Source: Nocardia farcinica
Lineage (GTDB): Bacteria; Actinomycetota; Actinomycetes; Mycobacteriales; Mycobacteriaceae
Assembly: GCF_001182745.1 (NCBI RefSeq)
Contig: NZ_LN868938.1
Span: 682,001 to 746,000 of the forward strand
Length of the DNA stretch: 64,000 nucleotides
Reading direction: 5' to 3'
In this document: piece by piece, positions 36,624 to 64,000 of the stretch
How positions within the stretch are numbered: position 1 is the first letter of the stretch
How the letters are laid out: each line of letters begins with the position of its first letter
Translations under genes and position numbers: made by a program
Notes under the pieces: generated by a model
What the model was told of the DNA's origin: nothing
Databases searched by the model: none
Seen by the model: the letters and a program-made list of their open reading frames with translations, nothing else

Positions 36624-36642
36624 TAATGACAATCGTTTTCAT
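36624..36642 (+). promoter_or_regulatory. Fur/Zur-like box upstream of ABC transporter genes
   Basis: TGACAATCGTTTTCA (36627-36641) matches the TGAAAATGATTTTCA-type core of Fur-superfamily boxes at 12 of 15 positions and is embedded in AATGACAATCGTTTTCAT. A 19-base alignment starting at 36622 matches 15 positions of the classical E. coli Fur consensus. It is 58 bp before the transporter ATG. It does not resemble the TTAGG-type IdeR/DmdR iron box of actinobacteria. Confidence 0.6.
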
Positions 36643-36699
36643 GAAATGGTTGTCGGAAGGGTTGGAGCTTCTCGTGGATGATGGGCAGGAGCGGTGACG

Positions 36700-38547
36700 A
36701 TGGGTGGTACCGCAGCAGCGCTCCGAACGGACGAGGCCACACCGCCACCATCGGCATCCGCGGAGGCGACCGCGGTGTCCCCCGGTAGCGCGCTGTTCCG
36801 GCTGACCGAGCCGGTCCGCGGACGGCTGACCGCGTCGCTGGCCATCGCCGCACTGGGTGGCGCGGCCGGGGTGACCGGGTTCGTGGGAACGGCACTGGCG
36901 CTGGGGGAGTTGTTCGACGCCGACACGCGGACCGGCACCGTGGTGGCCTTCCTGGTGTTGGCCGCGGCCGGCTTCCTCGCCCGATTCGCCCTGCGTGCCT
37001 GGTCGTTCCTGCTCTCGCATCTGGCATCGTTCGACCTCGAGCAGCGTCTGCGCAGCGATCTGGCCGCACACCTGGGCCGGATGCCGTTGGGGGAGGCGCA
37101 GCGCTTGGGCTCCGGCGCGGTGAAGAAGATCGTGCAGGACGACGTGCGCGGCCTGCACATGGCGGTCGCCGACGCCGTGCCGCTGGCCGGGTTCACCCTG
37201 GCCCAGCCCGTCGCGGCGCTGGTGGCGCTGGGCCTGGTGGACTGGCGGCTGCTGCTGGCGGTCGCGCTGTTCCTGCCGGTGGTGTTCGTCGGGATGCAGC
37301 TCAGCCTGCGCGACTACGTCGAGACCCGCCGCCGCTACGACGAGGCCAACGAGGCCATCAACGCGGCCACGGTGGAGTTCGTGCAGGGCATGCCGGTGGT
37401 GCGGACCTTCGACGACGGCACGGTCTCGTTCCGGCGCTTCGTCGACCGGGTGCGGCAGTTCAACGTCGCGACCACCAACTGGCAGAACAACAACCGCAGC
37501 GCGATGATCTTCGCCAACCTGACGGTCGCGCCGCTGCCGACCATCGTGATCGTGACCGCGGTCGGCATCTGGCTCACCTCGACCGGGTCGATGTCGCCCG
37601 CGCAACTGATCGCCGCGATCCTCATCGGCACCCTCCCGGTGGAATCGGTGGTCCCGTTGATGAACCTGTCCAACCTGCTCAACGACTCCAAGGCAGGCGC
37701 CGCCCGCATCGTCGAACTGCTCGACATCGAGCCGCTGCGGGAGCCTGCGGACCCGCAGACTCCGGCCGACGGATCCATCGAATTCCGTTCCGTCCGTTTC
37801 TCGTACCCGGGAGCGGACCGGCCCGCGCTGGACGGGGTGGACCTGACGATCCCGAGCGGCAGCGTGTGCGCGCTGGTCGGATCGTCCGGCTCGGGCAAAT
37901 CGACGGTCGCCCGGCTCATCCCGCGGTTCTGGGACGTCGATTCCGGGCAGGTCCTCGTCGGCGGGGTGGACGTTCGGCAGATCGCGTCGCAGGACCTGCT
38001 CGCCACCCTGGCGATGGTGTTCCAGGAGCCGTTCCTGCTCTCCGACACCGTGGCCGAGAACATCCGGCTGGCCCGGCCGTCGGCCACCGACGCCGAGGTC
38101 GAGGCCGCCGCACGGGCCGCCCACGCCCACGACTTCATCGTCTCGGAACTGCCGCGCGGCTACGACACCCCGGTCGGTGAGCGGGGCGCCCGGCTCTCCG
38201 GCGGGCAGCGCCAGCGCATCACCATCGCGCGTGCCCTGCTCGCGGACGCGCCGATCGTCGTCCTCGACGAGGCGACCTCCTTCGCCGACCCGGAGAACGA
38301 AGCGGCGATCCAGGACGCGATCGCCGAACTCACCCGCGGTCGCACCGTGCTGGTGGTGGCGCACCGGCTGTCCACGATCGTCGACGCCGACCGCATCGTG
38401 GTGCTGGAATCCGGCCGGGTCGCCGAATCCGGCACGCACACCGAACTGCTCGCCGCCGGCGGGCGCTATGCCCGGCTCTGGGAACACCACGAGCGCGCCC
38501 GCGGATGGGGTCTCGGCAGCTCGACCAAGGAGGCCATGCGCCGATGA
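36700..38547 (+). CDS. ABC transporter permease-ATPase, IrtA/YbtP-like
   Basis: A 615-residue half-transporter with an N-terminal six-helix exporter-fold membrane domain (about residues 30-330) and a C-terminal nucleotide-binding domain: Walker A GSSGSGKST, signature LSGGQRQR, Walker B IVVLDEATS and the switch HRLS. Despite the exporter fold, IrtAB and YbtPQ import metal-siderophore complexes. It lacks the N-terminal siderophore-reductase domain of mycobacterial IrtA and is therefore more YbtP-like. ATG 36700 is eight bases after AGGAG; a GTG two codons upstream is too close. It overlaps its partner gene by four bases. Confidence 0.87.
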   Translation: MGGTAAALRTDEATPPPSASAEATAVSPGSALFRLTEPVRGRLTASLAIAALGGAAGVTGFVGTALALGELFDADTRTGTVVAFLVLAAAGFLARFALRAWSFLLSHLASFDLEQRLRSDLAAHLGRMPLGEAQRLGSGAVKKIVQDDVRGLHMAVADAVPLAGFTLAQPVAALVALGLVDWRLLLAVALFLPVVFVGMQLSLRDYVETRRRYDEANEAINAATVEFVQGMPVVRTFDDGTVSFRRFVDRVRQFNVATTNWQNNNRSAMIFANLTVAPLPTIVIVTAVGIWLTSTGSMSPAQLIAAILIGTLPVESVVPLMNLSNLLNDSKAGAARIVELLDIEPLREPADPQTPADGSIEFRSVRFSYPGADRPALDGVDLTIPSGSVCALVGSSGSGKSTVARLIPRFWDVDSGQVLVGGVDVRQIASQDLLATLAMVFQEPFLLSDTVAENIRLARPSATDAEVEAAARAAHAHDFIVSELPRGYDTPVGERGARLSGGQRQRITIARALLADAPIVVLDEATSFADPENEAAIQDAIAELTRGRTVLVVAHRLSTIVDADRIVVLESGRVAESGTHTELLAAGGRYARLWEHHERARGWGLGSSTKEAMRR

Positions 38548-62609: not shown

Positions 62610-63751
62610 TCGCCACCGAACCGACGCCCGTACCCGCGACACCGAGGGTCGTCGTGTGCGGCACCTCGTTCGGCCGGGTGTATCTGCGCGCGGTGCAGGC
62701 CGACCCGGACGTCGAGCTCGCCGGCATCGTGTCCCGGGGCAGTGCCACGTCTCGGGAGATCGCGAAAACCTCTGGGGTGCCGCACTACTGCGGGGTCGAC
62801 GAGCTGCCCGGCGACATCGACATCGCCTGCGTCGCGGTGCGCGCGGGCGCGGCGGGCGGTGACGGCGCGCAGCTGGCCCAGCAGCTGCTGCGCCGCGGCA
62901 TCCACGTGCTACAGGAACACCTGCTGCATCCCGGCGAGCTCGCCGACTGCCTGCGGACCGCCCGCGCGCACGATGCCCGCTACCGGCTCAACGCGTTCTA
63001 TCCGCACCTGCGCCCGGTCGAATTGTTCCTGCGCGCGGCCGCCATCCTGCGCGCGCGGCAACGGCCACTGCACGTGGACGCCGCGGCGGGTGGCCAGGTC
63101 GCCTACTCGCTGCTCGACATCGTCGGCCGTGCTGTGGGCAGGCTGCGGCCGTGGGCGATCGGCGAGCCGGCGCCCGTCGCGCCGGAGCCGGCCGCGCTGG
63201 CCGATCCGCCCATGCCCTACACCCACCTGGCCGCCGTGATCGGCGGTGTGCCGGTGTCGTTGCGGGTACAGAACCAGATCCACCCCGCCGACCCGGACAA
63301 TCACGCGCTGCTGCTGCACCGGATCGCGATCGCCTTCGAGGGCGGCGTGCTGTCGCTGGCCGACACCCACGGACCGGTGCTGTGGAGCCCGCGCCTGCAC
63401 ACCGGCCGCGACGCGACCGGACGACTGGTCATGGCCGGACCCGGCACCGAACGGCTGGACGTGCCAAGCACCGAGGTGCTCGGGCCCGCGACCGCGCCCA
63501 CGTTCCGGACGGTGTTCGACGAACTCTGGCCGGACAGCGTGCGGGTGGCGTTGCGGCAGTTGCGCGCCGACATCGCCGATCCCCGCCGCTGTGCGGCCGC
63601 CGACCAGTGGGCGATGACCGTGACCGCCCTCTGGCAGCGGCTCACCACCGTGCTCGGCCCACCCGAGCTGATCCGGCCGCCCACGCCCGCGCCGGTCCCG
63701 TTGCCGCAGCTGCTCGCCGGCCCGGACCCGCAGACCGGAGTCCGCGGATGA
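62606..63751 (+). CDS. Thiazolinyl imide reductase (Irp3/YbtU/PchG-like)
   Basis: A 381-residue NADPH-dependent reductase that reduces a carrier-bound thiazoline to thiazolidine. The N-terminus (VVVCGTSFGRVYLRAV, LAGIVSRGSATSREIA) and the motif RGIHVLQEHLLHP closely follow Irp3 and PchG. Starts at GTG 62606 overlapping the previous stop, with GGAGG ten bases upstream. Its presence predicts at least one thiazolidine ring in the product. Confidence 0.9.
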   Translation: MIATEPTPVPATPRVVVCGTSFGRVYLRAVQADPDVELAGIVSRGSATSREIAKTSGVPHYCGVDELPGDIDIACVAVRAGAAGGDGAQLAQQLLRRGIHVLQEHLLHPGELADCLRTARAHDARYRLNAFYPHLRPVELFLRAAAILRARQRPLHVDAAAGGQVAYSLLDIVGRAVGRLRPWAIGEPAPVAPEPAALADPPMPYTHLAAVIGGVPVSLRVQNQIHPADPDNHALLLHRIAIAFEGGVLSLADTHGPVLWSPRLHTGRDATGRLVMAGPGTERLDVPSTEVLGPATAPTFRTVFDELWPDSVRVALRQLRADIADPRRCAAADQWAMTVTALWQRLTTVLGPPELIRPPTPAPVPLPQLLAGPDPQTGVRG

Positions 63752-64000
63752 ACGCGCCCGGTGTGTCCCGGGGACTGGCCGACCTGCACGCGTTCTCGGC
63801 CGACCCCTACGCCACCATGTCGCGGCTGTACCGGGAGCACGGCGCGATCACCGAACTCGGAGCCGGGCCGATGCGTTTCCGGCTCGCGCTCGGCACCGAC
63901 GCGACCGCGTTCATCCTCGGCCACAGCGAACTGTTCAGCTGGGAGGCGGCGTTCACCGCGCTGGCGCCGCTGACCGGGCGGTCCGCCCTGCTGGTCAACG
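63748..64000 (+). CDS. Cytochrome P450, N-terminal part (3' truncated by window)
   Basis: An ATGA start overlaps the reductase stop, and the frame remains open to the window end (84 codons). The visible residues (LADLHAFSADPYATMSRLYREHG, then FILGHSELFSWEAAF) match the N-terminal part of bacterial P450s: the proline/helix A region followed by the B-helix area. The heme-binding end is outside the window, so the family call rests on about 20 percent of the protein. It would be the second P450 of the cluster. Confidence 0.65.
   Translation, partial: MNAPGVSRGLADLHAFSADPYATMSRLYREHGAITELGAGPMRFRLALGTDATAFILGHSELFSWEAAFTALAPLTGRSALLVN

Follow-up and report, generated by a model that had tools for sequence, protein, structure and literature searches.

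In this study, we analyzed 64,000 nucleotides of Nocardia farcinica DNA (assembly GCF_001182745.1, contig NZ_LN868938.1, positions 682,001 to 746,000 of the forward strand; this whole stretch is called the window), at the end of which lies a gene cluster with a pair of ATP-binding cassette (ABC) transporter genes (ABC1 and ABC2) and two nonribosomal peptide synthetase (NRPS) genes (NRPS1 and NRPS2). Judged from its sequence, the cluster encodes, with a probability of about 0.82, a zinc metallophore (zincophore) system that is repressed by Zur and belongs to the transvalencin/uniformide type. The initial annotation of this DNA had proposed zinc rather than iron acquisition, and this proposal is supported by the rank of the Zur-type boxes, their conservation, the gene content, and the reverse pattern at a locus with IdeR-type boxes elsewhere in the genome. 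Coordinates without prefix refer to the window, those with the prefix C1 or C2 to contigs of the genome.

Palindromes had been claimed in both control regions of the cluster, at 36627-36641 and 46231-46245, and they were found exactly there. The control elements are as follows:

36624..36644, no strand: Zur-type box 1, 5′ of the ABC transporter genes; the 15-base core 36627-36641 is TGACAATCGTTTTCA
46228..46248, no strand: Zur-type box 2, between the O-methyltransferase gene and NRPS1; the 15-base core 46231-46245 is TGAAAATGATTTTCG
46192..46220, + strand: sigma-70-like promoter TTGACC-17-TAGATT before NRPS1, a consensus match only, 10 bases from the core of box 2

As predicted sites, both boxes are real, lie far above chance, and rank near the top of the Zur-type boxes detected in the genome. 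A 15-base Zur-like pattern, TGAAAATSATTTTCA, was searched with up to three mismatches in the window and in the 6.46-Mb genome. The window contained three matches compared to 0.10 expected, a number reached in none of 100 shuffles; the third match, at 46084-46098, scored merely 13.4 in the matrix described below. Genome-wide, 20 places were found versus two for a reversed-pattern control. The sole place with one mismatch was the NRPS1 promoter, and the four places with two mismatches were the ABC promoter, C1:747827 just past the window, a znuC-like promoter, and a COG0523 promoter. Each box also deviates by one mismatch among the specified bases from tGaNNatSatNNtCa, the Zur motif given for Streptomyces coelicolor (PMC5472717), and the 15-base core of box 1 is identical to the Mycobacterium smegmatis rpmB/cobW site (MSMEG_6068/6069). 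With the sigma-70-like promoter ending 10 bases short of the box 2 core, this box would sit at the transcription start; a search for such a promoter before ABC1 found none.

For ranking, a 21-base matrix was trained on 11 motifs located at genes of the M. smegmatis Zur regulon, with zero Nocardia sites. The motifs came from Table 6 of PMC7174638, of whose 23 rows 12 (11 distinct sites) were used and 11 rows for other genes were dropped, the choice following the Zur-regulated genes listed in the text of that paper, plus smtB. The training motifs scored 24.2 to 37.3 when left out one at a time. Applied to the 20 genome-wide pattern candidates and to 241,114 bases of own-genome sequence (overlaps included), the matrix gave 29.0 for box 1 and 31.7 for box 2. 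Among the pattern candidates, C1:747827 was at the top (32.7), followed by the NRPS1 and ABC1 promoters in second and third place, C2:647716 (28.2), COG0523 (28.2), rpmB2/COG0523 (27.3), and the znuC-like promoter (26.6), with the remaining 13 of the 20 at 15.3 or lower. The ranking that the initial annotation had suggested as a check thus places the cluster promoters with and above the znuC, COG0523, and rpmB2 promoters (26.6-28.2). Further strong sites in the 241,114 bases were found before an antiporter gene (C1:749392, 31.4), before a ZnuA-family gene on C2 (25.8), and as a second rpmB2/COG0523 site (24.5). Altogether, ten distinct own-genome sites reached at least 24.5, the next best one scored 15.8, and none of 100 dinucleotide shuffles of the window contained a site of at least 20. 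The box at C2:647716 lies directly before a gene that by eye is S-adenosylmethionine (SAM)-methyltransferase-like and adjoins a CopCD-like gene; a Zur-regulated methyltransferase, MSMEG_6055, is listed for M. smegmatis (PMC7174638).

A Zur protein is encoded in the genome. One Fur-family protein, from n=3 such genes, matched the FurB/Zur structure 2o03 with an E value of 3.5e-59, and its gene (C1:2694862-2695287) follows an ArsR/SmtB-like gene near a glycyl-tRNA synthetase gene, the neighbours being read from translations.

The boxes recur in relatives. A scan of named genomes for ABC1 yielded 49 loci, of which 21 were scanned for further genes and sites; 13 of the scanned loci are from Nocardia, with three species names occurring twice. 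ABC1, ABC2, the first cytochrome P450 gene (P450a; partial in locus L053), and the start of NRPS1 were found in 13/13 of the Nocardia loci, the halogenase and the O-methyltransferase in 12/13 each, and the salicylate synthase in 11/13. A box at the same place in the NRPS1 promoter, with matrix scores of 23.0-32.5, was present in all 13, and the ABC1 promoter carried a site of at least 20 in eight. In all, 28 sites in 271,496 bases reached at least 20 compared to 0 in 20 shuffles, and 21 of the 28 belong to the NRPS1 and ABC1 promoters. Relatives of the Irp3-like reductase occur in 13/13 named Nocardia genomes; no site of at least 18 was found within about 1.5 kb on either side of them at the 13 loci. 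Also, an ABC1 ortholog (E 1e-150) was detected in 19 of 150 genus genomes searched, which include N. farcinica itself and overlap with the named genomes. Within up to 400 bases upstream, all 19 had a site of at least 13 and 11 had one of at least 20, whereas among 600 stretches of that length drawn at random from the 13 named loci, without excluding the real boxes, 7.2% and 4.8%, respectively, reached these scores. A minority of the genus thus has the transporter, and the box before it is retained. The other eight scanned loci (L055-L061, L072) are non-Nocardia and stand outside the 13/13 counts; there, ABC1 and ABC2 alone of the query genes lay within reach, and sites of at least 20 were found in three of the eight. 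The relatives of the transporter pair in L055-L061 (47-73% identity) are from Rhodococcus, Streptomyces, Nonomuraea, and others, and in R. rhodnii a Zur-like site (25.0) precedes the pair.

The genes of the cluster in the window are:

36694..38547, + strand: ABC1, YbtP-like permease-ATPase (6p6i_A, E 2.8e-136, residues 33-614 in one stretch; alternative start ATG at 36700)
38544..40289, + strand: ABC2, YbtQ-like permease-ATPase (6p6i_B, E 1.5e-124, residues 3-576 in one stretch)
40808..42172, - strand: salicylate synthase of the MbtI/Irp9 type (TIGR03494, 391 bits with a cut-off of 325; MbtI, E 6.7e-89)
42183..43772, - strand: flavin-dependent halogenase-like protein (closest: tetracycline 7-halogenase, E 9.5e-136, and PltM, E 3.7e-92)
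43828..45075, - strand: cytochrome P450 (a)
45107..46120, - strand: O-methyltransferase (PF00891, E 2.1e-47)
46292..55963, + strand: NRPS1, ArCP-(Cy-A-PCP)x3, with DxxxxDxxS motifs in the Cy domains; A1 Ser/Thr-like, A2 and A3 Cys-like
55960..61473, + strand: NRPS2, TubC docking-condensation type-A-MT-PCP-TE; A domain Cys-like
61470..62609, + strand: saccharopine-dehydrogenase-like NADP protein (PF03435)
62606..63751, + strand: Irp3-like thiazolinyl imide reductase (TIGR01761, 338 bits with a cut-off of 189)
63748..64000, + strand: cytochrome P450 (b), running on beyond the window to about C1:747040

The extent first assigned to the cluster, 36624..64000, holds for its part inside the window; its end at 64000 does not, as the system continues with P450b, a methyltransferase gene, and two more Zur-type boxes (C1:745748-749412). 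The region just past the cluster (C1:747070-750844) contains a methyltransferase/MFS pair (box 32.7) and a sodium/proton-exchanger-like gene (box 31.4). The cluster of N. puris (L053) has relatives of the MFS and exchanger genes next to it, with a box of 32.5 immediately before the exchanger gene. On the other side, at 27686-35122, the adjoining region appears to encode an aromatic meta-cleavage pathway (FAD hydroxylase, dioxygenase, hydrolase, acetaldehyde dehydrogenase, aldolase) followed by an IclR-type regulator, all assigned from translations only.

A-domain specificities were read from motif anchors and not with a specialized prediction program; module 1 stands apart, whereas the remaining three modules have a Cys-type motif. 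Searches of the A domains against solved structures returned general NRPS matches that do not settle the specificity. The condensation-type domain of NRPS2 lacks a plain Cy motif and has ELLVVDAAS at the expected place (E for D); it is likely a Cy domain. Elsewhere in the genome, a group of four neighbouring, very large reading frames (5277 to 9424 codons) at C2:1379870-1501983 shows numerous A-domain matches.

The link to transvalencin made in the initial annotation is strengthened by N. uniformis (IFM 0856 = NBRC 13702; L054, L131, L132), the reported producer of uniformides. Its cluster, which together with the transvalencin A cluster of N. transvalensis represents the nearest known system, is orthologous to the one described here, with 12 genes at 73-82% identity; it lies on two contigs, at whose ends roughly the last third of NRPS1 is cut off, so that orthology covers NRPS1 in part. 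Common to both are the ABC pair, salicylate synthase, halogenase, P450, O-methyltransferase, NRPS1, and NRPS2, and also the saccharopine-dehydrogenase-like protein, the Irp3-like reductase, P450b, and the methyltransferase. The A-domain motifs agree in the three domains visible in N. uniformis, and Zur-type boxes occur at three matching places, the third of which (33.3) lies beside the methyltransferase gene as in N. farcinica; N. uniformis was the one relative examined for this box. Different from N. farcinica, the salicylate synthase and halogenase genes are located on the other side of the transporter genes. According to a review (PMC11364655), N. uniformis made uniformides A and B, chlorinated relatives of the zinc complex transvalencin A, when grown with J774.1 macrophages but not when grown alone in that medium. 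The review gives the formula of uniformide A, a zinc complex of the transvalencin A kind, as C23H26O6N4S3Cl2Zn and names a transvalencin-like cluster as its suggested source. We infer that one Ser/Thr and three Cys modules fit the four nitrogen and three sulfur atoms of uniformide A and that the halogenase fits its chlorine. Module count, halogenase, Irp3-like reductase, and O-methyltransferase, all deduced from genes, fit a predicted product with four heterocycle modules and three sulfur atoms, a chlorinated ring, a thiazolidine, and a methoxy group. The cluster looks set to make a zinc-binding molecule of the transvalencin/uniformide type.

From these features, the following mechanism can be proposed. 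When zinc is plentiful, zinc-loaded Zur, encoded in the smtB-zur pair, would bind the boxes before ABC1 and at the NRPS1 start, and transcription would be blocked. When zinc is short, the boxes would be freed. Salicylate would then be made, chlorinated, loaded on the ArCP domain, and elongated by four rings, one of them derived from Ser/Thr and three from Cys; thiazoline reduction and methylation, presumably in this order, would follow, and the thioesterase would release the product, whose exact structure is predicted. The chelator would leave the cell and bind zinc as its probable metal, and the YbtPQ-like pair would import the chelator or its metal complex.

Several observations weigh against this proposal. 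Yersiniabactin-type compounds usually bind iron too. The site in the ABC1 promoter is below 20 in five of the 13 named Nocardia loci (13.4-19.8) and in eight of the 19 genus genomes, and the matrix was trained on sites predicted at Zur-regulated genes rather than on individual footprints. Two-domain ABCB exporters slightly outscore YbtP in total for ABC1, and one outscores YbtQ for ABC2, so that import by the YbtPQ-like pair is presumed. Besides the NRPS A domains, no salicyl-AMP ligase was among the matches in the cluster, and as the candidate ligase described below lies in an IdeR-type locus, production may also depend on iron. In addition, iron represses the comparable mupirochelin genes of a Pseudomonas far more strongly than zinc does (PMC10080011).

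Of the alternatives, the one that survives best accepts that Zur controls the cluster and assigns to the product a mainly toxic or signalling role, as an antibiotic or cytotoxin acting by zinc piracy or zinc delivery, instead of nutrition. The description of transvalencin A as an antibiotic zinc complex and the cytotoxic or NF-kappaB-inhibiting activity reported for uniformides (PMC11364655, PMC11022428) speak for this role; we nevertheless regard it as unlikely, because the YbtPQ-like pair in all 13 named loci and the Zur-like site before it in all 19 genomes fit uptake, the presumed transport direction.

A very improbable alternative is an iron siderophore cluster under IdeR/DmdR control, similar to those for nocobactin or mycobactin, in which the AT-rich boxes would be incidental. 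Its appeal lies in the salicylate synthase, the thiazoline chemistry, and the YbtPQ/IrtA-like transporters, which are typical of iron siderophores; the recurrence of Zur-type boxes across Nocardia speaks against it, as does the search for the IdeR/DmdR box. For this search, a TTAGGTTAGGCTAACCTAA-type consensus was used, a blunt tool with two places genome-wide at three mismatches and none better. In line with the absence stated in the initial annotation, the window contained 0 matches to TTAGGTTAGGCTAACCTAA within three mismatches, and the best matches in the two cluster promoters were 9/19 and 12/19 (no shuffle control). IdeR control of the cluster was rejected on these grounds. In comparison, a salicylate locus at C2:93832 (C2:92332-96897) has two IdeR-like boxes with 15/19, which is below the three-mismatch threshold and likewise without shuffle control, and no Zur-type box. 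It encodes a second MbtI-like salicylate synthase (by translation) and the best salicyl-AMP-ligase candidate of the genome (647 bits, below the dihydroxybenzoate (DHB)-ligase cut-off of 724). The pattern of the zinc cluster, Zur boxes and no IdeR match, is the reverse of that at this locus. As the cluster showed no ligase of its own, activation of salicylate probably occurs in trans, and the zinc and iron pathways may share the one ligase of the C2:93832 locus. A tblastn search (E 1e-30) with this candidate against the 21 loci of relatives, extending at most 10 kb and in several cases less on each side of ABC1, gave no match; a more distant ligase would escape it. A second aryl-AMP-ligase-like protein is encoded at C1:1900760, in a locus with no Zur-type site.

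Least probable is the use of the boxes by another Fur-family protein, FurA-type or a Nur-like nickel regulator, for which two further Fur-family genes (2o03 not among their matches at E 1e-10, nearest solved structure 3eyy for both, one adjoining a katG-like gene by translation) and an antiSMASH nickel site beside the zinc site in the N. mangyaensis NH1 cluster (PMC10920908, Table 1) could be cited, whereas the motif is the Zur motif, such boxes occur at znuC, rpmB2, and COG0523 genes of the genome, and nickel control was rejected with two weak matches to a Nur-type pattern in the window, below the 7.35 expected and none near these promoters.

Returning to Zur-repressed zinc acquisition, a tentative and rather doubtful extension would combine these points: transvalencins and uniformides would be zinc-starvation metallophores of a Nocardia lineage, and the restriction of uniformides to co-culture would arise because host cells or medium starve the bacteria of zinc and lift Zur repression. 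If, as it seems, the ligase is supplied by the C2:93832 locus with its IdeR-like boxes, low zinc would be required for production, and iron would modulate it as well. Zinc depletion is therewith suggested as a simple way to elicit these compounds, which macrophage co-culture yielded and the corresponding single culture did not. As isolated and structurally described zinc complexes, the uniformide/transvalencin family also offers a chemically accessible test of the idea of actinobacterial zincophores.

Among known systems, yersiniabactin (Irp/Ybt) shares with the cluster the salicylate synthase, the Irp3-type reductase, and the YbtP/YbtQ-like pair. It differs by its Fur/iron boxes, which are Zur-type here, and by a synthetase with polyketide domains, none of which were found in NRPS1 or NRPS2. 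Mupirochelin of Pseudomonas sp. NCIMB 10586 is predicted to contain Thr/Cys/Cys plus Cys in an aryl-oxazoline compound and binds zinc and iron (PMC10080011); likened by description, its system differs in being mainly iron-regulated and Gram-negative. A (Ser-Cys-Cys)+(Cys) NRPS cluster of N. mangyaensis NH1 was listed by antiSMASH with regulator sites for zinc and for nickel (PMC10920908). The tetroazolemycin paper considered oxazole/thiazole siderophores possibly tied to zinc, citing coelibactin and transvalencin (PMC3707159); beyond this suggestion, a search of open literature (listings and partial texts) found no paper tying transvalencin/uniformide clusters to Zur. A further close counterpart is the coelibactin cluster of S. 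coelicolor (SCO7676-7692), an NRPS metallophore locus repressed by Zur (PMC5472717, PMC3430247, PMC6103462), in agreement with what the initial annotation had stated of it. Coelibactin was called the first proposed bacterial zincophore, its product not having been found or isolated as of 2012 (PMC3430247). Compared by description, its cluster likewise has two NRPS genes, two ABC transporters, and a P450; unlike here, the descriptions consulted mention no halogenase or O-methyltransferase. The N. farcinica cluster has putative Zur boxes and NRPS genes and may belong to this family of Zur-controlled NRPS metallophores. The proposed mechanism is of a known kind; new is the link of the transvalencin/uniformide family to Zur, that is, of Zur-type boxes recurring across Nocardia with a structurally known family of zinc complexes.

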